64,000 bases of DNA from Pseudonocardia autotrophica (GTDB taxonomy: Bacteria > Actinomycetota > Actinomycetes > Mycobacteriales > Pseudonocardiaceae), in contig NZ_AP018920.1 in NCBI RefSeq assembly GCF_003945385.1, positions 6,944,001 through 7,008,000 of the forward strand. Direction: 5' to 3'. Positions 7,387 to 47,151 of this stretch are shown one piece after another. A program made the translations under genes and the position numbers. The notes beneath the pieces are model-generated. The model did not search any database. It was given only the letters and a program-made list of their open reading frames with translations, and had not been told where the DNA came from. Position 1 is the first letter of the stretch, and every line of letters starts with the position of its first letter.

Positions 7387-8330
7387 GCACCGTCCCGGCC
7401 GCCGGGCCGGTCACGCGTCCGGCCGCCGGGCGCATCGAGCGGCGCGACCTGCGGTCGATCGCCGTGTTCCTCGTGCTGGCGTTCGGGCTGGCCTGGCTCG
7501 TCGCGCTGCCGCTCTGGCTCGGTGATGGTCTCGCCGATCCCGTGTTCACCCCGACGGCGATGCTGATGATGGTGACCCCGGCGATCGCCGCCGTCGTCGT
7601 GGTGTTCCTCGTGGAGCGACCCGCACACCGGGCACGGGCACTCGGACTGTGGCCGCTGCGTCCGGTGGGAAGGCTCTTCGGCTGGATCGCGGCCGGGATC
7701 GCCGTCTGCATGGCGGTGGTCCTGGTGTCACTCCCGGTGGGCGCGCTGATCGGGGTCTATCCGGCCGACTTCACCGGCCTGTCCGGGTTCCGGCAGACGC
7801 TGGCGGACCAGGTGGGATCCGGGCAGGTACCCGGGTCGCTCGGCGTGCTCGCTGCCGTGCAGATTGCACTGATCCCGCTGGCGGCGTTCGTCGGGGTACT
7901 GCCGGCGCTCGGTGAGGAGATCGGTTGGCGGGGCTGGCTGCTGCCGAAGCTGATGCCGCTGGGGCCGGTGCCGGCGATCCTGGTCTCCGGGGTGATCTGG
8001 GGGACCTGGCACGCCCCGGTCCTGCTGCTCGGTTACAACTACCCGGACGCCCCGGGCTGGCTCGCCATCGCCGCGATGTCGGCGATGTGCGTCCTGGTCG
8101 GCGCGATCCTGGGCTGGCTGCGACTGCGGTCCGGGTCGGTGTGGCCCGCCGCCCTCGGACACTCGGCGTTCAACGCCACTGCCGGGTCGTTCCTGCTGTT
8201 CTCCCAGGCCGGTGCGACCATCGACACCACACAGGCGACGATCCTCGGCTGGAGCGGCTGGATCGTGCCCCTGGTGCTGGTCGTCGTGCTCGTCGCGACC
8301 GGCCGGTTCGCCCCCGCCCGAACCGCCTAA
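7383..8330 (+). CDS. CPBP-family intramembrane metalloprotease
   Basis: A 315-residue polytopic membrane protein with about eight hydrophobic segments and all CPBP (CAAX protease and bacteriocin-processing) motifs: E178-E179-x3-R183 in GEEIGWRG, H210 in GTWHAP, and H260-x3-N264 in HSAFN. These ligate zinc inside the membrane. Bacterial CPBP proteins process or protect against peptides, or cleave membrane proteins such as anti-sigma factors; the substrate here is unknown. GTG at 7383 overlaps the upstream stop by four bases (GTGA), so it is co-translated with the HTH-DUF3887 protein. Its TAA stop overlaps the thiolase stop from the other strand by three bases, so the two genes converge with no room for a terminator. 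Confidence 0.85.
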   Translation: MSTVPAAGPVTRPAAGRIERRDLRSIAVFLVLAFGLAWLVALPLWLGDGLADPVFTPTAMLMMVTPAIAAVVVVFLVERPAHRARALGLWPLRPVGRLFGWIAAGIAVCMAVVLVSLPVGALIGVYPADFTGLSGFRQTLADQVGSGQVPGSLGVLAAVQIALIPLAAFVGVLPALGEEIGWRGWLLPKLMPLGPVPAILVSGVIWGTWHAPVLLLGYNYPDAPGWLAIAAMSAMCVLVGAILGWLRLRSGSVWPAALGHSAFNATAGSFLLFSQAGATIDTTQATILGWSGWIVPLVLVVVLVATGRFAPARTA

Positions 8331-9481
8331 ACAGCAGACTCGATGATCGTCGCCGTGGCCACTCCGCCGCCGCCGCACATCGTCGCGAGACCGAGCCCGC
8401 CGCCGGCATGCCGGAGAGCATGGGCGAGGTGGAGCATCTGCCGCGCTCCGGACGCCCCGAACGGGTGCCCGATGCTGATCGCACCGCCGTCGACGTTGAT
8501 GCGGTCGAGATCGAAACCGAAGTGCTGCTGCCAGATCAGTACCGGAACGGCATATGCCTCATGGACCTCTGCCAGAGCGATGTCCTCGGTCCTGATTCCC
8601 GCGCGATCCAGGACCTTCTCGGTGGCGTCGACGGGCCCGTCGAAGATGATGTCGGGGTCATTGCCGACCCAGGTCGCCGACCTGATCCAGGCCAGTGGTG
8701 AGAGGCCGTCTCGCTCGCACATCTCCTCGGAGGCGAGGACGAGCGCGGCGCTTCCGTCGGACAGCTGGCTCGAGTTCGCTGCGGTGTTCACCCCATCCGG
8801 TCGATACACCGGGGAAAGCGCGCTCGCCTTGACGATGTCGGAGTCGGCGCGCACCCCCTCGTCGGACCGGAGCAGGGGTGCTCCGTCGGCCCGGACGAAG
8901 GTGGCTTCGTCGTCGAACCGGCCGGCCTTCCAGGCAGCAGCTGCTGCCTGGTGGGACCGGACCCCGTACTCGTCGCACGCTCGACGCGAGATCGCGTACC
9001 TGTCGGCGGCGCGTTCGGCGGACTCGCCCTGGTGCGGCATGTCCCATCGCTCCGTGAGGGTTGCCGGGATCGGTCGATCCAGCCCGGCCTGCGCAGTCGT
9101 GAACATGGGCACTCGCGTCAGTGACTCGACTCCGCCCACCACTACGACCGACGCGTCACCGCTCGCGATCGTCGCGGCTCCCAGGTGGGCTGCCAGGTGA
9201 CTCGACGGACACTGCGCGTCCATGGTCATCGCCGGAACCTCGTGGGGGAGGCCGGCGGCGAGCCACGCGTTCCGCCCGACGTTCTGCGCCTGACCACCGG
9301 CTTGTCCGGTGGCCCCGAACAGCGCCTGATCGACTCTGCCGGCCTCGACGCCCGCGTCGGAGAGGGCAGCTCCGATCGAGACGGCGAGAAGGTCTGCGGG
9401 GTGGACGTCACGGTAGGCACGCCCCATCTTCGCGACGGGGGTTCGAGCTCCGCCGACGATGGCGACTCGGGTCATGGTCAT
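8327..9481 (-). CDS. Thiolase (acetyl-CoA C-acyltransferase family)
   Basis: A 384-residue thiolase that should cleave or form 3-ketoacyl-CoA in beta-oxidation or a related route. The nucleophilic cysteine is C91 in DAQCPSS, the general histidine H339 in GHPFGASGAR and the second cysteine C369 in MCGGGG; the usual NEAFA motif is varied to VHEAYAVP. The ATG at 9481 (MTMTRVAIVGGARTP) matches the family N-terminus; the second ATG at 9475 is equally possible, with GGGA eight bases before it. The reading frame stays open further upstream but that part is not thiolase-like. Before the mobile block arrived it would have been divergent from the TetR gene now at 20831, so this TetR protein is a candidate regulator (inference). 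Confidence 0.88.
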   Translation of the reverse strand: MTMTRVAIVGGARTPVAKMGRAYRDVHPADLLAVSIGAALSDAGVEAGRVDQALFGATGQAGGQAQNVGRNAWLAAGLPHEVPAMTMDAQCPSSHLAAHLGAATIASGDASVVVVGGVESLTRVPMFTTAQAGLDRPIPATLTERWDMPHQGESAERAADRYAISRRACDEYGVRSHQAAAAAWKAGRFDDEATFVRADGAPLLRSDEGVRADSDIVKASALSPVYRPDGVNTAANSSQLSDGSAALVLASEEMCERDGLSPLAWIRSATWVGNDPDIIFDGPVDATEKVLDRAGIRTEDIALAEVHEAYAVPVLIWQQHFGFDLDRINVDGGAISIGHPFGASGARQMLHLAHALRHAGGGLGLATMCGGGGVATATIIESAV

Positions 9482-9810
9482 TCCCAAACTGGTCGTGTAC
9501 ACGGATGCGAGGTGAAGAGCGAGCAGCGAGGTCACGCGTCGCCGGGCGACGCCCGACCAGATCCCTGACCCCGGCGTCGCCCTCCCGGGCAGCCACCCAC
9601 GGTCATCATGTGAATGGCAAATAGCTATCCTAGGGAAGCACGCCAGGCTTCGACCAGCAAGCATGCTGGATCACAGAATCCTCAGAAGTTTTCCCCACGA
9701 GAGCAGCTGCGTCCCGCGCTCCGGCGCGCGCCGCATCCGTCGGGCCGCCGGCGCGTGACGCCCCGGCCTCCGAGGCTTCCCGTCGCGTCAGGAGCGACGG
9801 CTCCCAGGCC
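9482..9810. promoter_or_regulatory. Thiolase upstream region
   Basis: No credible gene is seen in these 329 bases. They hold the thiolase promoter region. An AT-rich patch at 9612-9635 (around AATAGCTATCCTAGG) is the best promoter/operator candidate; on the minus strand it reads TAGGATAGCTATTT. The mobile block begins at 9811, about 330 bases upstream of the thiolase start. Confidence 0.35.
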
Positions 9811-9818
9811 GCCATACG

Positions 9819-9984
9819 GGCTCTTCCCAGATGAGGGTGTAGGTCGGCCGGGCGCGTCGGTCCGCAGATAGACGTCGAGGTCTCCCGACGATGGAGGTTC
9901 CTACGCCATCCATCCGAAAGACCTCGACGTGTCCGACGCTACCCCGCCGGCCGGGTTCGGCCGCCCTGACCTGACCGCCTTCGC
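9819..9984 (+). mobile_element. Truncated ISL3-family element (left end only)
   Basis: These 166 bases match the left end at 16511-16672 almost base for base: the terminal repeat (GGCTCTTCCCAGATGAGGG), the leader and the first codons of the transposase (GTG TCC GAC ...). Visible differences are an extra CCGG in the leader and a G for C in the PAGF codons, so the copies are related but not identical. The match stops at 9984, and the rest of the element is missing. Confidence 0.85.
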
Positions 9985-10163
9985 GGCTCATCCCAATCGA
10001 CCCTGATCGGGTCTGCTGACCCCCTCGACGAGAACGCAGCGACATCACAGCCACCCAACCCCGACCGTCCGGGAAGCCGGGGCACGTCACATGGCCTGTG
10101 CTGCGGGCGTGTCGAGTGGGTCGTCCAGGGGCGACGCAGGAGCGTCGACGCGACGTGCTGAGA
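9985..10163. other. Relic sequence beginning with an ISL3-type tip
   Basis: Directly at the break of the truncated ISL3 copy, bases 9985-9999 read GGCTCATCCCAATCG, identical to the outermost 15 bases of the ISL3 right end at 20797 (inverted). The next bases differ from that element, so this may be the tip of another ISL3 relative that caused an adjacent deletion. No gene is recognised in the remaining bases. Confidence 0.5.
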
Positions 10164-10171
10164 GGTGGTTC

Positions 10172-11580
10172 GGTGGCGTCCCCGTTGGTGGTGGAAGTAG
10201 CGGCCCTGTCCGGCGTGGCTGACTTCGTAGGAGGGGCCACCGCGTGAGTCTCTGCGTGTACCCGCCAAGGAACACGTAGAGAGGTGCCACGCGATGGCCC
10301 TGGACCAGTCTGCCCTGCTCGAAGTCCTCGATGCACTCAAGGTCGCCGATGTCGGTGACCGTGTCCGCACTGCCGCGGAGACGATCTATCAGGCGTTGAT
10401 CGAAGCCGAGCTCACCGACACGATCGGCGCTGCGCTGCACGAACGCAGCGATGCCCGCACTGCCCAGCGCAACGGGCACCGCACCCGTACCCTGTCGACC
10501 ACCGCCGGCGATTTGGAGCTGCGGATCCCCAAGCTGCGCACCGGGAGCTTCTTCCCGTCGCTGCTCGAGCGCCGACGCCGGGTCGACCGGGCGTTGTTCG
10601 CGGTGGTGATGGAGGCCTACCTGCACGGCGTCTCGACCAGGAAGGTCGACGACCTGGTCAAGGCCCTCGGCGCCGACTCCGGGATCTCCAAGTCCGAGGT
10701 CTCACGGATCTGCGCCGACCTCGACACCGAAGTCGGAGCGTTCCGCGACCGCTCGCTGGCCGAGCAGCGCTTCCCCTACGTGTTCCTCGACGCCACTTAC
10801 TGCAAGGCCCGGGTGAATCACCGCGTGGTCTCTCAGGCGGTGGTGATCGCCACCGGTGTCCGCGCCGATGGCTGGCGGGAAGTTCTCGGGTTCGCCGTCG
10901 GCGACTCCGAGGACGGGGCGTTCTGGACCGCGTTTTTGCGCAGCCTCAAAGCCCGCGGCCTCGGCGGGGTGCAACTGGTGATCTCCGATGCCCACACCGG
11001 GCTCACCCAGGCCATCTCGGCGGTGCTGCTCGGCGCGGCCTGGCAGCGCTGCCGGGTGCACTTCCTGCGCAACGTCCTGGCCCAGGTCCCCAAGGGCAAC
11101 GCCGAGATGGTCGCCGCCGCGATCCGCACGATCTTCGCCCAGCCCAAGGCCGACATGGTCCGCGACCAGCTCAACGTGATCGCAGGGATGCTCGGCCGCC
11201 AATCAGCGAAGGTCGAGACCATGCTGCGCGACGCCGCCCCTGACCTGCTGGCCTTCGCCGATTTCCCTGCCGCGCACTGGAAGAAGATCTGGTCGACCAA
11301 CCCGCTGGAACGGCTGAACAAGGAGGTCAAACGCCGCACCGACGTGGTCGGGGTGTTCCCCAACCCCGAAGCGCTGCTGCGCCTGGCCGGCGCCGTCCTG
11401 GTCGAAGCCCACGACGAATGGCAAGCCGGTGACCGCCGCTACCTCGGCGAAGCCACCATGGCACTACTCGCCCCGCCACCGGCCGGCGACCAACCAGTGG
11501 CAGGACCCGAACTCATCACGGCATGATCTGACCTGCAGAGACCCTCGCGAGCGACTTACACCAACCGAGGGGACGTCACC
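10172..11580 (+). mobile_element. IS256-family element, copy 1 (1409 bp)
   Basis: The boundaries come from comparison with the inverted copy at 14612-16020: identity starts and stops at the same points. Imperfect terminal inverted repeats are GGTGGCGTCCCCGTTGG (left) and GGTGACGTCCCCTCGG (right, inverted). The 8-bp direct repeat GGTGGTTC flanks it (10164-10171 and 11581-11588), so this copy arrived by simple transposition. It carries one transposase gene. Confidence 0.92.
10294..11526 (+). CDS. IS256-family transposase (copy 1)
   Basis: A 410-residue mutator-type transposase that cuts and pastes the surrounding element. DDE residues are D166 (FLDATY), D232 (ISDAHTG) and E339 (NPLERLNKEVKRR, the family signature). 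The CRVHFLRN motif lies between the second D and the E. The ATG has GAGAGG eleven bases upstream. The protein is identical to that of the inverted copy at 14666-15898. The genes differ at least at one silent position (lysine codon AAA at 10948-10950 versus AAG in the other copy), so they are recent duplicates. It looks intact and active. Confidence 0.95.
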   Translation: MALDQSALLEVLDALKVADVGDRVRTAAETIYQALIEAELTDTIGAALHERSDARTAQRNGHRTRTLSTTAGDLELRIPKLRTGSFFPSLLERRRRVDRALFAVVMEAYLHGVSTRKVDDLVKALGADSGISKSEVSRICADLDTEVGAFRDRSLAEQRFPYVFLDATYCKARVNHRVVSQAVVIATGVRADGWREVLGFAVGDSEDGAFWTAFLRSLKARGLGGVQLVISDAHTGLTQAISAVLLGAAWQRCRVHFLRNVLAQVPKGNAEMVAAAIRTIFAQPKADMVRDQLNVIAGMLGRQSAKVETMLRDAAPDLLAFADFPAAHWKKIWSTNPLERLNKEVKRRTDVVGVFPNPEALLRLAGAVLVEAHDEWQAGDRRYLGEATMALLAPPPAGDQPVAGPELITA

Positions 11581-11728
11581 GGTGGTTCCAACCGAGCGCT
11601 AGGACACCGGCTACAGGCATGGCGATAGGTCAGGAACGGCGTCGCTCCCTGCGCAGGAGGGAGCGCAGAGTAGTGGCGTCCACCAAGGTGGTGTGCGACC
11701 CGGTCCTGGTCAGGGCCGTGGCGTCGAG

Positions 11729-13083
11729 GTGTGGGGCGGCCACCGCGTGATCTTCTGGAGACCTTCCACAGTGCTTCAGGAGTTCCACGCGATGACCGCA
11801 CCCTCCAGTATCGACCCCTCCGAGTTCCTGCACGAGCAGCTGTCCCAGGCGAGTCCCGATCTGCTGCGCCAGATGCTCACCACGTTCATCAACACACTCA
11901 TGTCCGCCGATGCCGACGCAGTGTGCGGGGCAGCGTGGGGCGAGCGCAGCGAGGCCCGCACGAACATCCGCAACGGCTACCGACACCGTGACTTCGACAC
12001 CCGCGCGGGCACCATCGACGTAGCGATCCCGAAGCTGCGCAACGGTTCCTACTTCCCCGACTGGTTGCTGGAACGTCGCCGCCGGGCGGAGCGGGCACTC
12101 ACGACGGTGGTCGCGACCTGCTATCTGCTCGGGGTGTCGACGCGGCGGATGGAGAAGCTCGTCGAGTCCCTCGGGATCACCAGACTGTCGAAGTCGCAAG
12201 TCTCGGAGATGGCCCGAGACCTCGACGGCCAGGTCGAGCAGTTCCGGACCCGCCCGCTCGACCAGGGCCCGTACACCTTCATCGCCGCCGACGCCCTGGT
12301 CTTGAAGGTGCGTGAGGGCGGGCGGGTGGTCAACGTGCACGCTCTGCTGGCCACCGGCGTCAACGCTGACGGGCACCGGGAGATCCTCGGCCTGCAGGTC
12401 ACCTCCGCCGAGGACGGAGCCGGCTGGCTCGGGTTCTTCCGAGACCTGACCGCCCGCGGCCTGTCCGGGGTCCGGCTGGTCACCAGCGACGCTCATGCCG
12501 GGCTCGTCCACGCGATCGGCGCCACCCTGCCCGGCGCTGCCTGGCAGCGCTGCAGGACGCACTACGCGGCGAACCTGATGGCCGCTACCCCCAAGTCCAG
12601 CTGGCCGTGGGTGCGGGCGCTGCTGCACTCGGTCTACGACCAGCCCGACGCCACCAGCGTTCACGCCCAGTTCGACCGGGTCCTCGACGGCGTGGCGGAG
12701 AAACTCCCGACGGTGTCCGAGCACCTCGACACCGCCCGCGCCGACGTCCTGGCCTTCACCAGCTTCCCGAAAGAGGTCTGGCGACAGATCTGGTCGAACA
12801 ACCCCTCCGAGCGACTCAACCGCGAGATCCGGCGTCGCACCGACGTCGTCGGCATCTTCCCGGACCGCAACTCGCTGATCCGTCTCGTCGGCGCCGTGCT
12901 GGCCGAGCAACACGACGAATGGGCCGAGGGACGCCGCTACCTCGGCCTCGAGGTCCTCGCCCGCTCCCGCGTCACCGCAGTCCCCGGCACCGGCTCCAGC
13001 AGCGAGGAGGTGACCTCAACAGACACGATCCCGGCGCTCAGCGCCTGACAGAACTAGAAGATCACGCGGTAGTCGTCACACAC
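11729..13083 (+). mobile_element. IS256-family element, second type
   Basis: The transposase is unlike that of the 1409-bp element. Terminal repeats are inferred from a 28-base match, 24 identical, between 11729-11756 and the complement of 13056-13083, both ending in CCGCGTGATCTTCT. A further patch, GTGGTGTGCGAC at 11689-11700, resembles the outer right end (GTGGTGTGTGAC), so the left tip could lie at 11689. No target duplication is visible with either choice, which suggests rearrangement at one end. The right end lies in the 3' end of the regulator gene at 13054-14010. Bases 11589-11728 between this element and IS256 copy 1 hold no gene; they include a CGCTCCC/GGGAGCG hairpin. Confidence 0.75.
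11792..13048 (+). CDS. IS256-family transposase (second type)
   Basis: A 418-residue mutator-type transposase. The ATG at 11792 follows CAGGAG and lies just inside the left terminal repeat; the frame is open upstream to 11693, but that would cross the element end. DDE residues: D167 (IAADALVLK), D233 (TSDAHAG) and E340 (NNPSERLNREIRRR). The CRTHYAANLM motif is present. Identity to the other IS256-type transposase in this window is limited to motifs, so they are separate lineages. No frameshift or stop is seen, so the gene appears intact. Confidence 0.93.
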   Translation: MTAPSSIDPSEFLHEQLSQASPDLLRQMLTTFINTLMSADADAVCGAAWGERSEARTNIRNGYRHRDFDTRAGTIDVAIPKLRNGSYFPDWLLERRRRAERALTTVVATCYLLGVSTRRMEKLVESLGITRLSKSQVSEMARDLDGQVEQFRTRPLDQGPYTFIAADALVLKVREGGRVVNVHALLATGVNADGHREILGLQVTSAEDGAGWLGFFRDLTARGLSGVRLVTSDAHAGLVHAIGATLPGAAWQRCRTHYAANLMAATPKSSWPWVRALLHSVYDQPDATSVHAQFDRVLDGVAEKLPTVSEHLDTARADVLAFTSFPKEVWRQIWSNNPSERLNREIRRRTDVVGIFPDRNSLIRLVGAVLAEQHDEWAEGRRYLGLEVLARSRVTAVPGTGSSSEEVTSTDTIPALSA

Positions 13084-14010
13084 CACGCCAGCGGACTTGA
13101 CCCGCAGAGTCTCGGCGTTCGCGTAGCCGACCCGTCGCGCGATCTCGGCGGAGGTGAGGTCCGTGGTTGCTGAGAGGTGCCGAGCTCGTTCGATGCGAAG
13201 CCGTTGGACGAAGCCGAGCGGAGTGAGGTTGAGCGCCGCACGGACTCGTCGTTCGAGGGTGCGCCGGCTGGTGCCGAGCGACTGCGCGACGACGGCGACG
13301 TTGAACGGTTCGTCCAGGCGGACGCGCACGAAGCGTTCGAACTCGACGACGATCGGGTCCTCGTGCCGGAGATGTTCGTAGGCGACGAAGGCCACCTGCG
13401 ACGGGCGCTCGTCGATGATGAGGAGCTTGGCGACATGTTGGGCCAGGTCGGGGCTGATCGATCGCACGAGTGAGAGCGCGAGGTCGATGTGGGCGAAGGC
13501 GGCGCCGGCGGTGACGAGGTTCCCGTCGACCACGACCATGGTGTCGAGATCGAGGGCGACGGTCGGATAGCGCTTCAGGAACTCCGGCCCCAGGAACCAG
13601 CTGGTCGTCGCCCGCCGATGATGCATCCGTCCGGTCTCGGCGACGGCGAACACGCCGGTGCACGCCGCGGCGATCCGGGTGGTCGCGTCGTCGAGGCGCC
13701 CGAGTGAGGCGATGACCGAACGAGCATCTCGGCTCTGGAGGGCGTCGTGGGTCGCGGCGGCCGTGAGGGTTCCAAGCGCAGGGACGACGACCACGTCGAA
13801 CTCTCCGGACTCCGACAGCGGGTGGTCCACCGACAGGGTCATCGATGCCGTCGTGGTCACTCGCCGTTTCGGTCCGAGGATGGCGAGTTCGATCGGGTCG
13901 ATCCGCGGGTCGACATCGCCGCGGGCTCCGTCGGCCACCCGCACGATGTCGATGACCGACGCGACCGCCGAACCGAAGCAGCCGTCGATCGCGATCAGTC
14001 CGATACGCAT
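13054..14010 (-). pseudogene. GlxA-family transcriptional regulator, C-terminus cut by an IS element
   Basis: A 318-residue frame of the DJ-1/PfpI plus AraC-HTH family. The N-terminal domain (MRIGLIAIDG ... ACTGVFAVAETG with the nucleophile-elbow cysteine) is followed by an AraC DNA-binding region from about residue 225 (FNVAVVAQSLGTSRRTLERRV, first HTH; TSAEIARRVGYANAETLR, second HTH). After 'AETLR' the normal ending (about 20 residues, usually ...GxxPxxYRxxF) is replaced by VKSAGVVCDDYRVIF, most of which is translated from the terminal repeat of the IS256-type element. The second recognition helix is therefore incomplete and the protein is probably inactive. The ATG at 14010 matches family starts. 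It is divergent from the monooxygenase gene, its likely target. Confidence 0.8.
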
Positions 14011-14117
14011 GGCGCGAACAATAGCAATACTGCCGTATACGCCACTCCCCACCGGCCCTCGCTCGTCATACGCTGAACTCGCCCCACGAAGAACCCCGAC
14101 TTCAAGGAGAACCCCTC

Positions 14118-14429
14118 ATGTCCACACCCGCATCACTTCCGTATGCCTTCGTCGCCAAGATCGTCGCGGCCGATGGACAGCACGACGCGCTCGCCGATCT
14201 GCTCGCTGGCGCTGTCGCACTCGCCAACGAAGAAGTAGGAACGATTGTCTGGTTCGCGGCTAGGACCCACGCCGACACCTTCTGGATCTTCGATGCATTC
14301 CCCGACGAGGCCGCTCGCGACGCCCACGCCAACGGCGCCATCGTCGCAGCCCTGATGGCCAACCAGCACCTCCTCGGCGCAGCACCCGAGATCCTGGCGG
14401 CCGACGTCCTCGCGTCCAAGCTCCCGTAG
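14118..14429 (+). CDS. ABM-domain monooxygenase-like protein
   Basis: A 103-residue single-domain protein of the antibiotic-biosynthesis-monooxygenase / YgiN-like quinol monooxygenase fold, a dimeric alpha+beta barrel. Typical elements are the start FVAKIVAADGQHDALADLL, the middle GTIVWFAARTHADTFWIFDAFPDEAARDAHANG and the end LLGAAPEILAADVLASKLP. The ATG follows AAGGAGA at 14104-14110. The family includes quinone-modifying and substrate-oxidising enzymes without cofactor; many members are uncharacterised. It lies divergent from the truncated GlxA-type regulator, a common arrangement for a regulator and its target, so loss of the regulator's HTH may have changed its expression. It is the only non-transposase cargo gene of the block that appears intact. 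Confidence 0.8.
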   Translation: MSTPASLPYAFVAKIVAADGQHDALADLLAGAVALANEEVGTIVWFAARTHADTFWIFDAFPDEAARDAHANGAIVAALMANQHLLGAAPEILAADVLASKLP

Positions 14430-14611
14430 TCCGCCAACGCACGAGACGATCGCGCCCCGCCGAGCCGTCGGACCCGACCGCCTCGACACCCGCACCACGT
14501 TGACGATCCCCGACGGGCCGATCACGAGGAGGCCAGGCAACACCAGGCGCAAGCCTGGAGCGGCACTGTTTCACCGGTGGTCATCGAGAGAGCCAGGCGC
14601 GGCGCGCGCGG

Positions 14612-16020
14612 GGTGACGTCCCCTCGGTTGGTGTAAGTCGCTCGCGAGGGTCTCTGCAGGTCAGATCATGCCGTGATGAGTTCGGGTCCTGCCACTGGTT
14701 GGTCGCCGGCCGGTGGCGGGGCGAGTAGTGCCATGGTGGCTTCGCCGAGGTAGCGGCGGTCACCGGCTTGCCATTCGTCGTGGGCTTCGACCAGGACGGC
14801 GCCGGCCAGGCGCAGCAGCGCTTCGGGGTTGGGGAACACCCCGACCACGTCGGTGCGGCGTTTGACCTCCTTGTTCAGCCGTTCCAGCGGGTTGGTCGAC
14901 CAGATCTTCTTCCAGTGCGCGGCAGGGAAATCGGCGAAGGCCAGCAGGTCAGGGGCGGCGTCGCGCAGCATGGTCTCGACCTTCGCTGATTGGCGGCCGA
15001 GCATCCCTGCGATCACGTTGAGCTGGTCGCGGACCATGTCGGCCTTGGGCTGGGCGAAGATCGTGCGGATCGCGGCGGCGACCATCTCGGCGTTGCCCTT
15101 GGGGACCTGGGCCAGGACGTTGCGCAGGAAGTGCACCCGGCAGCGCTGCCAGGCCGCGCCGAGCAGCACCGCCGAGATGGCCTGGGTGAGCCCGGTGTGG
15201 GCATCGGAGATCACCAGTTGCACCCCGCCGAGGCCGCGGGCCTTGAGGCTGCGCAAAAACGCGGTCCAGAACGCCCCGTCCTCGGAGTCGCCGACGGCGA
15301 ACCCGAGAACTTCCCGCCAGCCATCGGCGCGGACACCGGTGGCGATCACCACCGCCTGAGAGACCACGCGGTGATTCACCCGGGCCTTGCAGTAAGTGGC
15401 GTCGAGGAACACGTAGGGGAAGCGCTGCTCGGCCAGCGAGCGGTCGCGGAACGCTCCGACTTCGGTGTCGAGGTCGGCGCAGATCCGTGAGACCTCGGAC
15501 TTGGAGATCCCGGAGTCGGCGCCGAGGGCCTTGACCAGGTCGTCGACCTTCCTGGTCGAGACGCCGTGCAGGTAGGCCTCCATCACCACCGCGAACAACG
15601 CCCGGTCGACCCGGCGTCGGCGCTCGAGCAGCGACGGGAAGAAGCTCCCGGTGCGCAGCTTGGGGATCCGCAGCTCCAAATCGCCGGCGGTGGTCGACAG
15701 GGTACGGGTGCGGTGCCCGTTGCGCTGGGCAGTGCGGGCATCGCTGCGTTCGTGCAGCGCAGCGCCGATCGTGTCGGTGAGCTCGGCTTCGATCAACGCC
15801 TGATAGATCGTCTCCGCGGCAGTGCGGACACGGTCACCGACATCGGCGACCTTGAGTGCATCGAGGACTTCGAGCAGGGCAGACTGGTCCAGGGCCATCG
15901 CGTGGCACCTCTCTACGTGTTCCTTGGCGGGTACACGCAGAGACTCACGCGGTGGCCCCTCCTACGAAGTCAGCCACGCCGGACAGGGCCGCTACTTCCA
16001 CCACCAACGGGGACGCCACC
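14612..16020 (-). mobile_element. IS256-family element, copy 2 (1409 bp, inverted)
   Basis: It has the same length and ends as copy 1 but lies on the opposite strand. Flanks are GCGCGCGG (left) and CAGCGCCG (right), so there is no target duplication. That suggests recombination or deletion after insertion. The two inverted copies enclose about 3 kb (the second IS256-type element, regulator and monooxygenase). Confidence 0.92.
14666..15898 (-). CDS. IS256-family transposase (copy 2)
   Basis: A 410-residue transposase identical in protein sequence to that at 10294-11526, with the same catalytic D166, D232 and E339. The gene differs by at least one silent base. Both copies look functional, so either could mobilise both elements, or the whole segment between them as a unit with inverted ends. 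Confidence 0.95.
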   Translation of the reverse strand: MALDQSALLEVLDALKVADVGDRVRTAAETIYQALIEAELTDTIGAALHERSDARTAQRNGHRTRTLSTTAGDLELRIPKLRTGSFFPSLLERRRRVDRALFAVVMEAYLHGVSTRKVDDLVKALGADSGISKSEVSRICADLDTEVGAFRDRSLAEQRFPYVFLDATYCKARVNHRVVSQAVVIATGVRADGWREVLGFAVGDSEDGAFWTAFLRSLKARGLGGVQLVISDAHTGLTQAISAVLLGAAWQRCRVHFLRNVLAQVPKGNAEMVAAAIRTIFAQPKADMVRDQLNVIAGMLGRQSAKVETMLRDAAPDLLAFADFPAAHWKKIWSTNPLERLNKEVKRRTDVVGVFPNPEALLRLAGAVLVEAHDEWQAGDRRYLGEATMALLAPPPAGDQPVAGPELITA

Positions 16021-16433
16021 CAGCGCCGGTTCCATGGCAGCGCAACTGTGTCAACTTGCCCTCCGTCCCGCGAGGCGCCGTGGACGGGTCGTGGTTGCGA
16101 TCCGTTGCCGTGACGGGAGACGCGTTGCGCGTCGCAGCGATGACGGGTCGTTGGCGTTCCGGGGCGTTGCGTTCGTGCGCGCCGCGCGTGCGGCATGGAG
16201 CATCTCGCTGCGCACACAACGATCGCTGCGCCGACGCACCGTTGACACCTCGCACGTCCAGGTCGCGACACAACGCCACGCTGCGTTGCCGAGCGGAGCG
16301 AGGCATATCGGCACACGGACAGGATGCCGGCCGCGAGCGCTCAGCCGGCGAGGGGTCCGTCGCAGAGGAGAGCGACGTCGGTGTCGGGCAGAGCCGTGAG
16401 GCCAGCGCATTGCGCGACCACCAGAACCGAACC
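16021..16433. other. Non-coding stretch inside the mobile block
   Basis: No recognisable gene. Short frames on both strands have no family resemblance and no ribosome binding site. The stretch is rich in CGTTGCG-like words. It separates IS256 copy 2 from the hairpin and tRNA remnant and may be native flanking DNA of that tRNA gene. Confidence 0.4.
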
Positions 16434-16465
16434 GCCCCTGCCCTGCGTTTGCGCAGGTCAGGGGC
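16434..16465 (-). terminator. Stem-loop downstream of the tRNA remnant
   Basis: GCCCCTGCCCTGCG pairs with CGCAGGTCAGGGGC around a TTTG loop, with a single C/T mismatch. It lies seven bases beyond the 3' end of the tRNA remnant on the minus strand, the usual place for a tRNA terminator. Confidence 0.6.
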
Positions 16466-16472
16466 TGTTCGC

Positions 16473-16510
16473 CGGAGCCGCCTGTCGGAATCGAACCGAC
16501 GACCTAATCA
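16473..16510 (-). pseudogene. 3' remnant of a tRNA-Thr-like gene
   Basis: Read on the minus strand the sequence contains a complete T-arm (GTCGG TTCGATT CCGAC) followed by AGGCGGC, the acceptor-stem end, then T and CCG where CCA would be expected. Upstream are AGGTC of the variable loop and TGAT, the end of an anticodon stem. The acceptor end AGGCGGCT is the same as in the intact tRNA-Thr(CGT) at 28041-28117, so a threonine isoacceptor is likely. The 5' half is missing: the ISL3 tip starts at 16511. Confidence 0.7.
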
Positions 16511-16961
16511 GGCTCTTCCCAGATGAGGGTGTAGGTCGGCGCGTCGGTCCGCAGATAGACGTCGAGGTCTCCCGACGATGGAGGTTCCTACGCCATCCAT
16601 CCGAAAGACCTCGACGTGTCCGACGCTACCCCGCCGGCCGGCTTCGGCCGCCCTGACCTGACCGCCTTCGCTCGACTCGACGGCCTCGGTCTGAGCGTGA
16701 CCGGGCAACGACTTGAACCGGATCGTGCGGTCCTCGCGTGCCGCGTGGTGGAACCAGATCAGTCTTGCCGACGGTGCGGCAGCGAAGGCGCTGCTCGTGA
16801 CACCGTGATCCGGCGGTTGGCCCACGAGCCGCTGGGCTGGCGACCGACCGTGCTGGAAGTTGTAGTGCGCCGCTACCGCTGTGCCGACTGTGCTGGCGCT
16901 CAGCGAAAATGACCAGTTCTGATCGGTGGAAGTGACCACCCTGGCGCGGCCAGAGTAGTGG

Positions 16962-17357
16962 TCAGGTCGGGGTCATGTGGGTCACCTCCGGGGTGCGGAT
17001 GTGGGCGGCGCCGGCGGGGACGACGACGGTGATGACGGCCAGCTCGGTGCGGCAGTGCGGGCAGCGTTGGACGCCGTTCGCGGCGGGAACGGCGTGCCCG
17101 GGTGGGACGGCGTTCGGGACGGCGTCGGGAACGGCGTGGTCGCCGTTCGGGCTGGTGAGGGCATCGCGCGTGACGGCGTTCGCGGTGTTGAACGAGCCGG
17201 GAACGGCGTCCGGGACGACGTCCGGGGCGGTGTGCGGGTGGTCGCGGTGATGCGCGGCTCGACAGCGCGAGGAGCAGAACCGGCGGTTGGGGTTGCGTCG
17301 GGTCACGGTGACCTGCCGGCCGCAGGCCGGGCAGGGGTGCTCGCCCAGGATGGTCAT
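16962..17357 (-). CDS. Zinc-motif protein, third gene of the IS21 element
   Basis: A 131-residue protein whose ATG overlaps the istB stop by four bases (ATGA), so it is translated with istB. Near the N-terminus C9-x2-C12 and C28-x3-C32 followed by HHRDH (CPACGR ... FCSSRCRAAHHRDH) look like a zinc-binding site of the short ribbon/treble-clef type. A Pro/Val/Ala-rich linker follows, with repeats of 'DAVP' and 'NAVP', and then a further C98-x2-C101 pair (CPHC) near the C-terminus. Standard IS21 elements encode only IstA and IstB. The function is unknown; DNA binding or regulation of transposition is a guess. The translational coupling and the intact motifs argue that it is real. Confidence 0.72.
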   Translation of the reverse strand: MTILGEHPCPACGRQVTVTRRNPNRRFCSSRCRAAHHRDHPHTAPDVVPDAVPGSFNTANAVTRDALTSPNGDHAVPDAVPNAVPPGHAVPAANGVQRCPHCRTELAVITVVVPAGAAHIRTPEVTHMTPT

Positions 17358-18217
17358 GATCGGCCCTGCCCGGTCGGGTCGTGCTCGCCGAGCGCCAGCC
17401 GGAGTTGGTTACTGCGTTGCTGGTGGGCCCGCATCCGGTAGGAGGGCCCGTCGATGGCGACGACGATGCCCCGGTGCAGCAGCCGGTCGAGCAGCGCGGC
17501 GGCCAGCATCGGGTCGGCCAGCCGGTCACCCCAGCTGGCCACTCCGGCGTGGCTGGTCACGATCGTCGACGACTTCAGATAGCGGCGGTTGATCACCTCG
17601 AACAGGGCGGCGTTCGCGTCCGGGTCCGGCGCGGTGCGGGAGTAGGCGAACTCGTCGATCACCAGCAGCCGGGGGCCGCAGTAGAACCGCATCGCGGTGG
17701 CCCAGCGTCCTTCCAAGGCGGCCTTGCGGCAGCGTTTGGCCAGTTCGGCGGCGGTGGTGAAGTAGACCCGGTGCCCGGCATCGACCGCGGCCCGGGCGAG
17801 TGCGACCGCGAGCATCGTCTTGCCGGTGCCGGGTGGACCGACGAACAGGACGTTGCCGGCGTCGTCGAGGAAGCGCAGCGCCGCGAGCTCACGCACGAGT
17901 TTCTCGTCGACCCCGGGTTGGGCGGCGAAGTCGAACTCGTCCAGGGTCCAGGAGTGCGGCAGGCAGGCGAACCGCAACCTGCCGGCCAACCGACGGGCCT
18001 CGGCGTGGGAGACCTCGAGCCCGAGCAGCCGTTCCATCACCGCGGTGGGCGAGAGCTGCTCGGCGCGGGCGGCGTCGAGCACCCCGGTCAACGCCTCGGC
18101 GGCCGTGCCCAGCTTGAGGACCTCCAGGTGAGCGCGCAGCCGCTGATAGGTCGCCGCCTCGCTCGAGCCGTCGGGTTCAGCCTGGTTGACCGCATGGTCG
18201 GGCCGGTGGGTGTTCAT
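17354..18217 (-). CDS. istB: IS21 helper ATPase IstB
   Basis: A 287-residue AAA+ ATPase related to DnaC. Walker A is GPPGTGKT at residues 127-134 and Walker B is LLVIDEF at 184-190, with sensor-type segments after it (TIVTSHAGVASWGD). IstB forms oligomers on target DNA and recruits or stimulates the IstA transposase. The ATG at 18217 overlaps the istA stop (ATGA), the usual coupling in this family. The frame is open far upstream into istA, but that is out of frame with IstA. It is complete and apparently functional. Confidence 0.94.
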   Translation of the reverse strand: MNTHRPDHAVNQAEPDGSSEAATYQRLRAHLEVLKLGTAAEALTGVLDAARAEQLSPTAVMERLLGLEVSHAEARRLAGRLRFACLPHSWTLDEFDFAAQPGVDEKLVRELAALRFLDDAGNVLFVGPPGTGKTMLAVALARAAVDAGHRVYFTTAAELAKRCRKAALEGRWATAMRFYCGPRLLVIDEFAYSRTAPDPDANAALFEVINRRYLKSSTIVTSHAGVASWGDRLADPMLAAALLDRLLHRGIVVAIDGPSYRMRAHQQRSNQLRLALGEHDPTGQGRS

Positions 18218-19593
18218 GAGCTCTCCCGCCCATCCTGTCCGCTGGTCTCGCCGGTGTGGGCGCGTCCGCGCAGCGGGCGGGTGCCGGAGGCGTAGGCGTC
18301 GAAGTCGATGACGACCTGCTCGCCGCTGGCCGGGCCGGCCTGGGCGTGGCGGATCCGATCCGCTTCGGCCAGGGCGTCGGCGGTGGGTGGGCGGCGGTGC
18401 TTGCGCGGGCAGGGCGCGCGGTCGGTGAACTCGGCGAGCACCACCCGGGTCATGGCGTCGACGTGTTCGTCGAGGCGCACCAGTGCGCCGGCTCCGTCCG
18501 GGGACCGCAGGTGATGCGCCAGCGCGACACCGCGTGCGGTGGCGATGTCCAGTGCCGGGGTGCCGAGTTGGTGGCGAACGGTCACGATCTCGCCGGTGTG
18601 CCCGGGTGGGATCGAGTAGCGGTTGCCGCGGAACGCGACCAGGGCCTGCTCGGACACGGTGCGCTCGACGCTCAGCACCGCCGGCAGCGGCGCCGGTGCC
18701 GCCCGCAACGGCTCGGCCTCGGCCAGCGCGCCCACGGTCGTCTTGCCCCCGTCGGCGTCGGCGCGGCGGCGTCCGTCGAGGCGGGCGCAGATCCGGTCCA
18801 GCCCGGCCTGGGCCCCCGCGAGGGTGGTGTCGTCGGCCAGGGTGCGCCACCAGCGTTGGGCGATCACGTGCGCGCTCTTCTCCACCGCGCCCTTGCGCCA
18901 GGCGTGCCGCGGCGGGCAGATGTCGATCCCGACCCGGTAGTGCACCGCCACCGGTCCGAAGCTGACCGTGAGCCGGCCCGAGCCGGGATGACACACCGTG
19001 GACATCCGGTCGAACCGCCACCGCCGCGTCACCCCGCCGAGACGGCCGACGACCTGGTCGAGGCCTTCGATCAGGTGCGGCTGATCGAGCGACTCGGTGA
19101 TCCAGCCCCGCCACCGGCTCGAGTGCGCCAGCACCCCGAGCAGCACGAACGCGCTGCCGGCGAACCCCCAGTGCGCGGGCGGGTCGGTCAGCTCCAGGTA
19201 GTCCCACTGGGTCTCGGCGCCCGGCGGATGGGCGATCACCGCCCGCTGGCTGGTCTTGCCCGACCGACACGGCTCGCAGGCCGGGCGCAGCTCCCGGGCG
19301 CGCAGCGCGCGCGTGAACGAGGGATACGAGCCCGCATAGCCCAGCGCGGTGACCTCGTCGAACAACGTGGTCGCCCACAGATGCGGGTCCGCACCGAGCC
19401 GCAGCCGGCAGTACTCGGCGAACCCCTCGAACGGATCCGGCACGCTGCGGGCCCGCTGCCCCGGCGTGTGTTCGCCGCTCAGATAGCGGCGCACGGTCAC
19501 CCGTGTGACGCCCAGATGCCGGGCGATCGCGGAGATCGTCCATCCCTGCGCGCGTAGTGCTTGTGCTTCCACGTACGACTCCCATGCGAGCAT
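18214..19593 (-). CDS. istA: IS21 transposase IstA
   Basis: A 459-residue transposase. The N-terminal HTH (WTISAIARHLGVTRVTVRRYLSG, about residues 18-40) binds the element ends. The rve/DDE catalytic core has D131 (TQWDYLEL), D195 (RFDRMSTV) and E238 (KGAVEKSA). The C-terminal part includes the usual IS21 segment with YSIPPGHTGEIV. It is complete, and together with IstB it should be able to move the element. Confidence 0.93.
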   Translation of the reverse strand: MLAWESYVEAQALRAQGWTISAIARHLGVTRVTVRRYLSGEHTPGQRARSVPDPFEGFAEYCRLRLGADPHLWATTLFDEVTALGYAGSYPSFTRALRARELRPACEPCRSGKTSQRAVIAHPPGAETQWDYLELTDPPAHWGFAGSAFVLLGVLAHSSRWRGWITESLDQPHLIEGLDQVVGRLGGVTRRWRFDRMSTVCHPGSGRLTVSFGPVAVHYRVGIDICPPRHAWRKGAVEKSAHVIAQRWWRTLADDTTLAGAQAGLDRICARLDGRRRADADGGKTTVGALAEAEPLRAAPAPLPAVLSVERTVSEQALVAFRGNRYSIPPGHTGEIVTVRHQLGTPALDIATARGVALAHHLRSPDGAGALVRLDEHVDAMTRVVLAEFTDRAPCPRKHRRPPTADALAEADRIRHAQAGPASGEQVVIDFDAYASGTRPLRGRAHTGETSGQDGRESS

Positions 19594-20830
19594 CCCGAGT
19601 GGGCTCCCTCGACGACTTCCGGCCGGTTCAACCGGAGCGTCGAGGGGGCCCGCCTACTGGTGGTGGATCTCAGTCGGCGGGTCGCAAGGGTGGTCACTTC
19701 CACTGATCAGCAGTGGTCACTTTCAGATGAGCGGCGGCAACTGCGGACACGTGTGGCGCCAAGACACCAGCGCCGCGGCGGAGCCACGCGCGAAGCTCTC
19801 GCGCACCGGGTTGCGGTGGGCGCTGGAAGGGATCGTGGTCGCACACCTCACCGTCGCCCGTGTCGCCGAGGGACTCGGGGTCGCGTGGGACACCGCCAAC
19901 AACGCGGTCCTGGCCGAAGGCAATCGGCTGCTGATCAACGACCCCACGCGGTTCGAGGGCGTGAAGGTCATTGGCGTCGATGAGCACGTCTGGCGCCACA
20001 CCAGGCGTGGCGACAAGTACGTCACCGTGATCATCGACCTCACCCCGGTCCGCGATGGCGCCGGCCCAGCAAGGCTGCTGGACATGGTCGAGGGCCGGTC
20101 GAAGGCGGCGTTCAAGACCTGGCTCGCCGACCGCGACGACGCCTTCCGTGACGCGGTCGAGGTGGTCGCGATGGACGGCTTCACCGGGTTCAAGACCGCC
20201 GCTGCGGAGGAGATCCCGGACGCGGTCACGGTGATGGATCCCTTCCACGTCGTGCGCCTGGCCGGTGACGCCCTCGACAGGTGCCGGCGCCGGGTCCAAC
20301 TCGCGATCCACGGGCACCGTGGGTTCAGGGACGACCCGCTCTACAAGTCGCGGCGCACGCTGCACACCGGCGCGGACCTGCTCACCGACAAGCAGAGCGA
20401 CAGGCTACGCGCGCTGTTCGTTGATGACGCTCACGTCGAGGTCGAGGCGACCTGGGGTGTCTACCAGCGCATGATCGCCGCCTATCGCCACGAGGACCGG
20501 CAACGTGGCCGCGAGCTCATGGAGAAGCTGATCACCGACCTCAGCGCCGGCGTCCCCAAGGTGCTCACCGAGCTCACCACCCTGGGCCGGACCCTGAAGA
20601 AGCGAGCCGCCGACGTGCTCGCCTACTTCGAACGACCCGGCACCAGCAACGGGCCGACCGAGGCGCTCAACGGACGGCTCGAACACCTGCGCGGCTCCGC
20701 ACTCGGGTTCCGCAACCTGACCAACTACATCGCCCGAAGCCTGCTCGAGACCGGCGGCTTCAGACCCCAACTCCTACACCCCCGATTGGGATGAGCCGCC
20801 ATACGTCGCCACCGCCGCGCCGCCCGGGCG

Positions 20831-21976
20831 ATGACGATGGCGGATACTGCAGCCGTGACCGTCGAGACCCGATCCGGGCGCCGCCCCCGCGACCGTCGCG
20901 CACACATCATTGCCGCGGCCGCCCACCGCTTCTACCTCGACGGATACCACCGTGTCTCGATGGCGGAGATCGCGGCGGACGTCGGAATCGGGCCGAGCGC
21001 GCTATACCGGCATTTCAGCAGCAAAGAATCGATGCTCCTCACCGTGCTCGACGTACTGCTCGCCGAGATGGAAGCACTCGACGGAGATCTGATCACCGAA
21101 CTTGCGGGATTCGTGCTGAAGCACCGCGAATTCGGTGTGCTGTGGCAACGCGAGGTCGGGCACCTTCCGGTGGAGAACCAGCGGACCCTCCGGCATCGGG
21201 TGCGCGGTCTCGCGAAACGGGTCGGCGCCGGCATCGACGACGCGGCCGATTTGCGATCGTGGGCGACACTGTCGGTCCTGGACAGCCCCACGTATCACCA
21301 CACCGACCTCGACGATCGGAGCGTCGTCGACATACTGACCACGGCGGTCGACGCCGTCTCGACCGTCGCCCTGCCCGACGACCAGTCCGTCGTCGACGAC
21401 GGATCGGTGGGCCTGCAGCCGGCGTCCCGTCGAGAAGCACTGCTCATGATCGCGTGTCGCCTGTTCGCCGAGCGCGGCTACCCGTCCGTCGGCCTGATCG
21501 ACATCGGCGCCGCTGCCGGAATCGCGGGAGCGAGCGTCTACAACCATTTCGCCAGCAAGCCAGAAGTACTCGCCACCGCTCTCCATCGCGGCAACGAAGC
21601 ACTGTGGCTGGGCCTGCACGAGGCACTGGCCCATGCCGCGAGCGCTACCGATGCACTCGACCGTCTCGTCACCCATTATGCAAATTTTTCCGTACGCAAT
21701 CCGCACATCATCGCCATCCTGGTGACCCAGACGCTCCATCTGCCCCCCGAGTACTCCGGTGGGCTTCACCGCGCCCAGCGCGACTACGTCGCCGAATGGG
21801 TCGCCCTGGTCCTGAGCAGCCGTCCCGACCTCACCGAGGCCGAAGCGGCGGTCACGGTTCACGCCGCGTTCTGTCTCATGAACAGCCTCTGCCGGATTCA
21901 TGCTCTGCGGTCGCTCCCGGGTCACATCACCAACACCGCCTGCCTGGCGAAGGCGGTCCTCGGCCTGAGCCGGTGA
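20831..21976 (+). CDS. Tandem two-domain TetR/AcrR regulator
   Basis: A 381-residue protein with two TetR DNA-binding domains in one chain. The first is at about 22-68 (RRAHIIAAAAHRFYLDGYHRVSMAEIAADVGIG... LYRHF) and the second at about 200-246 (RREALLMIACRLFAERGY ... DIGAAAGIAGASVYNHF). The ordinary TetR has one such domain in about 200 residues, so this is a duplication or fusion. Each is followed by a helical ligand/dimer part. It starts 26 bases after the ISL3 target duplication, so its promoter now lies in or next to ISL3 DNA. The thiolase on one side and the amidase and acyl-CoA synthetase on the other are candidate targets. The second codon pair offers an alternative ATG at 20837. Confidence 0.85.
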   Translation: MTMADTAAVTVETRSGRRPRDRRAHIIAAAAHRFYLDGYHRVSMAEIAADVGIGPSALYRHFSSKESMLLTVLDVLLAEMEALDGDLITELAGFVLKHREFGVLWQREVGHLPVENQRTLRHRVRGLAKRVGAGIDDAADLRSWATLSVLDSPTYHHTDLDDRSVVDILTTAVDAVSTVALPDDQSVVDDGSVGLQPASRREALLMIACRLFAERGYPSVGLIDIGAAAGIAGASVYNHFASKPEVLATALHRGNEALWLGLHEALAHAASATDALDRLVTHYANFSVRNPHIIAILVTQTLHLPPEYSGGLHRAQRDYVAEWVALVLSSRPDLTEAEAAVTVHAAFCLMNSLCRIHALRSLPGHITNTACLAKAVLGLSR

Positions 21977-41567: not shown

Positions 41568-42019
41568 GCGCACTCGCCCGCCTGAAGGAACTCGGCCTGA
41601 CCCTGCCCGCGGTCGCGACGCCGGCCGGCGCCTACATCCCGGCCCGGCGCACCGGGAACCTGGTGTTCACCGCCGGGCAGGTCCCGTTCGTCGACGGGAA
41701 GATCGCCGCGACCGGCAAGGTCGGCGCCGGCGTGACGCCGGAGGACGCCTACGGCCTGGCCCGGATCTGCACGCTGAACGCGCTCGCGGCGATCGACGGC
41801 CTGGTCGGGCTCGACGCCGTCACCGGTGTGGTCAAGGTCGTCGGCTTCGTGTCGTCCGATCCGTCCTTCACCGGGCAGCCCGGTGTGATCAACGGCGCGT
41901 CCGACCTGCTCGGCGAGGTGTTCGGCGAGGCGGGGGCACACGCCCGATCGGCAGTCGGGGTGGCCGTCCTCCCGCTGGACGTGCCGGTCGAGGTCGAGCT
42001 GACCGTCGAGGTCGGCTGA
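41564..42019 (+). CDS. RidA/YjgF-family protein
   Basis: A 151-residue RidA-family protein (trimeric, usually an enamine/imine deaminase that removes reactive 2-aminoacrylate-type intermediates). Recognisable segments are GAYIPARRTGNLVFTAGQVPFVDGKIAATGKVGAGVT, the NALAAIDGLVGLDAVTGVVKVVGFV helix-strand and the ending VPVEVELTVEV. It belongs to the 150-residue branch seen as Rv3678c. GTG 41564 overlaps the DUF4177 stop (GTGA), so the two are coupled. Whether it is catalytic cannot be judged here. Confidence 0.88.
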   Translation: MSALARLKELGLTLPAVATPAGAYIPARRTGNLVFTAGQVPFVDGKIAATGKVGAGVTPEDAYGLARICTLNALAAIDGLVGLDAVTGVVKVVGFVSSDPSFTGQPGVINGASDLLGEVFGEAGAHARSAVGVAVLPLDVPVEVELTVEVG

Positions 42020-42041
42020 GCGGAACCGGCGGGACGAACAC

Positions 42042-42613
42042 ATGGGCACAGCGGAGCGCACGACGCCGGCCGGGCACGAGCTGCTCCTGCAGCTGGCCGG
42101 CCGGGTTCCGGACGAGCTGCTGTGGCGGATGCGGAACTGGCTCGCCTGCGGTGACTCCGACGCGCTGAGCGCCACCCTGCCGCGGACGCTGTTGCGGCAC
42201 CGGATCGGGATCACCGACACCGAACGCGCGCTGCTGGCCGAGGTCGTGGTGCCGGAGTCGCCGTCGCGACGCCTGGTCGACGCGGTGCTTCCCGGCACGT
42301 CCCCGCCCCCGCCGTCGTTCGGGCCGGGCGATGCGGACCTGGCCGCCTGGTCGGCCATGTCGGTCGTGTCCTCGGCGGGCGGCGGCGAGCTGCTCGTCGC
42401 CACCCGGGACGACGGCGCGCGGATCCTGCTGGTCCGGGACGCGGACCGGCCGGTCGAGCTGACCGCCACCCTGCAGCGCCTGCTGCGGGTGCACGCGAGC
42501 ACGTTCCGCGGGTGGAGGTCTGGGTCGGCGACGACCCGCCGGCCGCCTACCACGGGGCGGCGTGTTCCGCCGCCGTGTCGCTGTGGAGCAGGTCGCCGGT
42601 ACCCACCGGCTGA
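42042..42613 (+). pseudogene. Unknown actinobacterial protein with a one-base frameshift
   Basis: The frame from ATG 42042 codes about 151 residues (GHELLLQLAGRVPDELLWRMRNWLACGD ... ELTATLQRLLRVHA) and then turns to shadow-like sequence. From 42497 the -1 frame continues naturally (EHVPRVEVWVGDDPPAAYHGAACSAAVSLWSRSPVPTG) and stops at 42611-42613, just before the ribosome binding site of the next gene. One base appears to be missing after 42496. The start is paralogous to the next protein (YRLLLELAGRVDDDLL). It is either a real mutation or an assembly error; if corrected it would be about 190 residues. Function unknown. Confidence 0.65.
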
Positions 42614-42625
42614 CAAGGAGGCCCC

Positions 42626-47141: not shown

Positions 47142-47151
47142 GTGATCCGAG

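Follow-up and report, generated by a model that had tools for sequence, protein, structure and literature searches.

Passenger genes on ISL3-family insertion sequences (ISs) have been described before, as summarized here from excerpts of the papers cited. ISPpu12 and ISPst2 are ISL3-family elements whose cargo is a putative signal peptidase with a metal antiporter, or an ArsR regulator with a permease (PMC4133298, PMC6305408). The enterococcal fosB element combines an ISL3-type transposase with a passenger gene in about 2.5 kb between perfect 25-bp inverted repeats; its 8-bp target duplications are AT rich, circles were shown by inverse polymerase chain reaction, and two copies on one plasmid were ascribed to separate insertion events (PMC5559704). 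In Brevibacterium aurantiacum, an 11.8-kb region with iron-uptake cargo between two ISL3-family elements, ISAar39 and ISAar42, has been proposed as a composite transposon; ISPfr2 was reported in all B. aurantiacum strains of that study, the excerpt of which mentions no AraC-ABM unit on ISPfr2 (PMC6579920). Here we analyze a 64-kb stretch of Pseudonocardia autotrophica DNA (the window) in which the block at 9819-20797 is almost certainly a copy of a passenger-carrying ISL3-family (ISPfr2-like) transposon that moved by transposition. Its cargo consists of a gene for an AraC regulator and a gene for an ABM-like protein.

The unit resembles ISPfr2 and other ISL3-family ISs in its transposase, which matches PF01610 and NF033550 above cut-off, and in its 8-bp target duplication. 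Plasmid relatives of the unit are annotated "ISL3-like element ISPfr2 family transposase." The unit differs from ISPfr2 in carrying two further genes, AraC and ABM-like, and in having as its left end the left tip of another, truncated copy. With the fosB element it shares an ISL3-type transposase with a passenger gene, inverted repeats, and AT-rich 8-bp duplications, whereas cargo, host phylum, and size differ. Its cargo also differs from that of ISPpu12 and ISPst2, in whose descriptions, as excerpted, a composite-like right arm does not appear. The ISAar39/ISAar42 region likewise places DNA between two ISL3-family elements, but with other ISs, another size, and other cargo. We recognized no paper on an AraC-ABM ISL3 transposon or its spread in a literature search that left subscription journals mostly uncovered, so that absence is unproven. 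The mechanism of transposition is already known; the notable part is the breadth of spread.

Transposition of the unit

The sequence GCCATACG stands at 9811-9818 and 20798-20805 and occurs nowhere else in the window. Each copy abuts an ISL3 tip exactly, the left tip starting at 9819 with GGCTCTTCCCAGATGAGGGTG and the right tip ending at 20797 with CACCCCCGATTGGGATGAGCC, and the terminal inverted repeats are imperfect (GGCTCTTCCCAGATGAGGGTGTAG and GGCTCATCCCAATCGGGGGTGTAG). An earlier reading of the window from its letters alone (the sequence-only reading) had placed this duplication outside both outer tips, and its coordinates are correct. By count, two occurrences are unremarkable (shuffle mean, 1.06; 27 of 100 shuffles reach two). 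The probability of one set 8-mer of this composition at one set place is about 2 in 100,000, if G and C are assumed to make up about 35% each and A and T about 15% each. A chance match was discarded as the source of the pair because of the exact contact with the tips and because the unit has a second copy.

That second copy lies on the other contig of the two-contig genome, C2 (289,155 bp), the window being part of contig C1 (7.25 Mb). The sequence-only reading had noted, correctly, that the inner flank of the right ISL3 copy differs from GCCATACG; it reads CCTAATCA, at 16503-16510. The proposed search of the genome for a partner end found CCTAATCA beside ISL3 once more, on C2, inside the same unit. 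Positions 20835-24676 of C2 hold the whole unit in 3,842 bp (left arm, AraC gene, ABM gene, CCTAATCA, and an uninterrupted ISL3), so that the C2 ISL3 copy lies between CCTAATCA and GGCAATCC. The unit has GGCAATCC at both ends and contains none of the four later insertions of the window copy. The main segments (353 to 1,500 bp) are 99.8 to 100% identical between the two units, with two substitutions outside the insertion junctions. Among 62 genomes of the genus, the CCTAATCA-ISL3 junction occurs only in this one, twice, once per unit.

The presence of one unit at two sites, between two different duplications, indicates transposition rather than homologous recombination between ISL3 copies. The sequence-only reading had offered both. 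Recombination could have started from a simple ISL3 insertion at GCCATACG, with homologous integration of a circular molecule whose ISL3 was flanked by CCTAATCA; this would yield the same outer flanks and a foreign inner flank in the window. On C2, however, the left arm, cargo, and inner junction recur within another perfect duplication, and the empty site of that insertion is known. We consider such an origin very improbable. That a single ISL3 at GCCATACG was later torn apart in place, with the inner left end a local duplication, is hardly conceivable. The window copy does hold four later insertions, but C2 has the left arm, cargo, and inner junction without them, which already refutes this account, and left arm and cargo, though not the right junction, are found in many other genera as well.

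The empty counterpart of the C2 site was found in Pseudonocardia alni. When the C2 flanks are joined with one GGCAATCC, plasmid pPaSha1 of this species matches unbroken over query bases 2-308 with 95.5% identity. In this locus, the match to the C2 left flank runs up to locus position 1748 and that to the right flank from 1741 onward, so the two overlap by exactly 8 bp, which there read GGTAATCC; the gene at the site is annotated multicopper oxidase domain-containing. The sole other plasmid match, from Mycolicibacterium gilvum, is also unbroken across the junction (70% identity, query bases 103-406).

The right part of ISL3 has 100% matches at four places in the genome and three weaker matches at 72 to 76%. 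Of these four, two represent simple insertions bordered by the 8-bp duplications GCTTGTCC and ATCAAAGG, which brings the ISL3-type target duplications of this genome to GCCATACG, GGCAATCC, GCTTGTCC, and ATCAAAGG. ISL3 is still uninterrupted in its C2 copy and at two further sites of the chromosome.

In the mechanism to which these results point, the unit works from two ends, on the left the outer tip of an ISL3 remnant of 166 bp and on the right the outer tip belonging to a complete ISL3. The ISL3 transposase would act on these two tips and move all that lies between them, inserting at an 8-bp target with an A/T center and duplicating those 8 bp. After the unit landed at GCCATACG, three IS256-family insertions and one IS21-family insertion enlarged it from 3.84 to 10.98 kb, the latter splitting the transposase gene. 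What was a puzzling 8-bp match becomes a documented transposition, with a second copy, its empty site, and a target rule.

Organization of the window copy

The features of the window copy and its neighbors are as follows.

8327..9664, minus strand: left neighbor, thiolase, outside the transposon
9811..9818, unstranded: left 8-bp target duplication GCCATACG
9819..9984, plus strand: left arm, 166-bp ISL3 left end (ISPfr2-like), no transposase
9985..9999, minus strand: 15 bp identical to the ISL3 right tip, reversed
10172..11580, plus strand: IS256-family insertion A, transposase at 10294-11526; absent from the C2 unit
11672..13102, plus strand: IS256-family insertion B, transposase at 11693-13048; 8-bp duplication CGCAGAGT
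13054..14052, minus strand: cargo 1, AraC/GlxA-type regulator (DJ-1_PfpI and HTH_18)
14118..14429, plus strand: cargo 2, 103-amino-acid ABM-like protein (PF03992 and PDB 2pd1)
14612..16020, minus strand: IS256-family insertion C, inverted identical copy of A; no clean duplication
16503..16510, unstranded: inner flank CCTAATCA, one copy of the target presumably hit by the right ISL3 in the unit tail
16511..20797, plus strand: right arm, ISL3 with transposase PF01610; the transposon ends on the right at the tip of this ISL3
16891..19739, minus strand: IS21-family insertion, IstA-like at 18214-19593 and IstB-like at 17354-18295; ACTG on both sides
20798..20805, unstranded: right 8-bp target duplication GCCATACG
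20831..21976, plus strand: right neighbor, TetR-type regulator, outside the transposon

The break thus falls between the thiolase and TetR genes, where the sequence-only reading had put it; the TetR open reading frame (ORF) starts at 20831, 25 bases past the duplication and not 26.

The left arm differs from the complete ISL3 copies of the genome by a 5-bp insertion and one base, and these differences are the same in the window and C2 units. The right-arm ISL3, 1,434 bp in its uninterrupted copies, has its transposase split by the IS21-family insertion with the 4-bp duplication ACTG. The transposase domain is confirmed in the window (ORF 19505-20794; PF01610, 4.1e-56), and the transposase of the C2 copy scores 362.7 bits against NF033550 (cut-off, 180). 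For the ABM-like protein, the PF03992 score of 19 bits is under the cut-off of 23.1, and the match to PDB 2pd1 has a value of 9.3e-23. Insertion B truncates the 3' end of the AraC gene and replaces the last residues of the window AraC protein; the C2 unit encodes the uninterrupted 327-amino-acid form (L019:1229-2212).

Insertion A has the 8-bp duplication GGTGGTTC at 10164-10171 and 11581-11588, and two identical copies of insertion B stand elsewhere on C2. At insertion C, altered GC-rich flanks are found where a clean duplication would stand. The identical inverted copies A and C bracket the cargo and might make up a further composite within the transposon. C2 carries further pairs of identical or nearly identical repeats of 0.9 to 1.4 kb, perhaps IS copies, at 14319-15246 and 41920-42851, at 46443-47799 and 200370-201726, and at 83885-85276 and 212072-213463.

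The inner flank had been read as a tRNA remnant. It is T-arm-like only; ARAGORN gave no tRNA there, and a tRNA origin was rejected. Nor did ARAGORN find a tRNA inside the unit in any of the 16 related loci scanned, 14 of which have none at all, while L046 and L052 each have one outside the unit. A comparison with Rfam gave four matches, all of which scored below the gathering scores; three belong to plant or animal types, and the fourth is a riboswitch.

Right junctions and classification

To see where CCTAATCA comes from, it helps to read it in reverse complement, as TGATTAGG. In three related loci (L056, L060, and L067), GACG-TGATTAGG-TCGTCGG is unbroken, and an ISL3 follows CTGAAACG at a distance of 238 bp on the outer side. 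The ISL3 of the window and C2 units sits exactly at TGATTAGG, and that of L046 and L052 lies 13 bp away, at CGCAAAGC. All three 8-mers conform to the A/T-center rule. Most simply, new copies of ISL3 would have inserted into the tail of the unit and each turned into a new right end; the right ISL3 of our unit would have arrived separately at TGATTAGG and then served in this way. No remainder of the tail follows the right tip in the window copy or in the C2 copy. Both therefore appear to have arisen by later moves, and the birthplace is not seen in this genome. The inner junction is unique within the genus, and TGATTAGG or TGATCAGG also stands beside a diverged ISL3 in L098 (Microbacterium) and L090 (Leucobacter), at the same TGATTAGG/TGATCAGG position as in our genome. 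Either one site was hit repeatedly or the arrangement is older.

The class of the element is less clear-cut than its movement. As in a composite transposon, the outermost IS tips bound one unit that moved whole, with a single duplication around it. A complete IS does not stand at each end, however; the left copy is 166 bp long and lacks a transposase, so we call the unit composite-like rather than a classical composite. The composite transposition of the sequence-only reading stands insofar as the unit moved whole, which the second copy, the C2 empty site, and the related loci described below attest; the left arm is only an IS end.

As in a passenger transposon, the AraC and ABM-like genes lie between the working tips in both copies, but a second left tip, at 16511, adds to the expected single left and single right tip. 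That the unit belongs with single-transposase ISL3 passenger transposons such as ISPpu12 and the fosB element, with the inner left end a leftover, is quite possible, at somewhat less than an even chance. In 10 of 80 related loci, the inner left tip is missing and ISL3 is fused to the cargo (short form), which would leave one tip of each kind. Six short forms of 3,190 to 3,193 bp have both outer tips and perfect duplications (L085, L092, L094, L117, L119, and L120), and L109 (3,190 bp) and L122 (3,189 bp), overlooked by the string test, look like short forms too. What speaks against such a classification is that, in the window and C2 units, the right-hand ISL3 retains a tip at each end; presumably it is able to move independently, like the arm of a composite.

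Distribution among actinobacteria

A search of GTDB species genomes with the AraC protein found 176 encoding loci, the best 80 of which were analyzed. Among these 80, 31 named actinobacterial genera are represented, in addition to unnamed bins (counted by record titles). Their AraC proteins are 96 to 99% alike, and the DNA of the cargo core is 96.2 to 99.8% alike. Different genera are normally far less alike at the DNA level than this, which implies recent passage between genera.

Both outer tips are present in 34 of the 80 loci, one in 26, and none in 20. Flanks are readable in 33 of the 34 two-tip loci (L071 runs off its contig), and 29 of the 33 show a perfect 8-bp duplication, with 28 distinct sequences. 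In a cross-locus control, 2 of 1,056 pairs match, explained by a site common to L061 and L064. Together with the four duplications of our own genome, the 28 distinct sequences give 32 targets, with A/T at position 4 in 31 and at position 5 in 29. Transposition is thus well supported by the second copy, the C2 empty site, and the loci with duplications of their own. The same tips bound the unit in these 29 of 33 loci, and recombination between ISL3 copies would need a repeat event at each site.

Several observations weigh against this interpretation. One or both tips are missing in 46 of the 80 loci, some of them at contig ends, and 4 of the 33 testable loci (L052, L059, L068, and L103) have no duplication. 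None of the five two-tip Rhodococcus plasmid copies described below has the equal flanks of a duplication. No empty GCCATACG site was found, and no genome of the genus other than our own shows both flanks, in searches with the thiolase flank in 60 genus genomes and with the TetR and joined flanks in 62. The loci and plasmid copies that lack a duplication indicate that the flanks of such units do get rearranged.

Plasmid records holding at least 80% of the unit number 13, from Rhodococcus, Tsukamurella, and Dietzia. Six Rhodococcus plasmids were examined, and five units on them (L133, L135, L136, L137, and L138) have both tips, with unequal outer flanks. A left or right flank is common to some of these plasmids, which points to later recombination between ISL3 units there and, for this setting, lends the recombination account some support.

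Four loci (L059, L061, L064, and L127) are 2,452-bp derivatives with most of the transposase gone, and their movement would depend on a transposase supplied from outside the unit. L061 and L064 have one target sequence in common, and L127 is from a genome of another family.

Within the genus, the left arm matches at 99% or more over 349 to 353 of 353 bases in 7 of 62 genomes, our own included. Five left-tip flanks are readable, two of our own genome and three others, and all are different. Outside our genome, the GCCATACG-flank searches returned only paralogues, short chance matches, or the coding part of TetR, whose relatives in the 62 genomes are at most 57% alike. A thiolase-like match lies near TetR in 2 of 12 other TetR-type loci with 1.5-kb flanks (L034, 26%; L041, 24%). 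In a sample of the phylum, the cargo matches at E of 1e-50 or less in 6 of 396 genomes, two of which, G339 and our own, have the mobile form; the unit is therefore widespread, yet not common per species.

Cargo genes

Some sources call the AraC relatives GlxA-type regulators. The nearest 90% cluster, 95% identical, has 3,200 member sequences and two near clusters have 174 and 189, counts that include repeated isolates and assemblies and so overstate breadth. Most other clusters among the 120 listed have 20 members or fewer.

Three loci (L128, L129, and L130) hold AraC-ABM pairs that are 80 to 89% alike and have no ISL3 within 1.5 kb. Such nonmobile pairs are likely the kind of source lineage from which the cargo came. 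Among the ORFs scanned around them (17 of 28 listed), no common gene context was found; mycothiol-S-transferase and alpha/beta hydrolase genes lie near the pair in G308, and the other two pairs lack them among the ORFs covered.

The ABM gene is kept at 95% or more of its length in 77 of the 80 loci and the transposase gene in 39 of 80, in a set chosen for a good AraC match, which favors intact AraC, and with some contigs ending early. In this passenger transposon, the cargo is retained in more loci than the transposase. Mean synonymous (dS) and nonsynonymous (dN) divergence from the C2 copy is 0.041 and 0.007 for ABM (77 loci; dN/dS, 0.17), 0.031 and 0.013 for AraC (80 loci; dN/dS, 0.42), and 0.020 and 0.007 for the transposase (39 loci, 14 with indels; dN/dS, 0.34). 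Amino acid changes are thus few in ABM. As the dN/dS of AraC is no better than that of the transposase, it is ABM, together with retention, that carries the case for selection on the cargo.

A role with reactive quinones or aldehydes is a guess that the folds of ABM and DJ-1 suggest. We offer as speculation, and an unlikely one on present evidence, that the AraC-ABM pair drives the spread, either by guarding actinobacteria from a common reactive compound or through control by AraC of the transposition or persistence of the element. If so, the unit would be among the most widely spread passenger transposons of the Actinomycetota, with a function that nobody has looked for.

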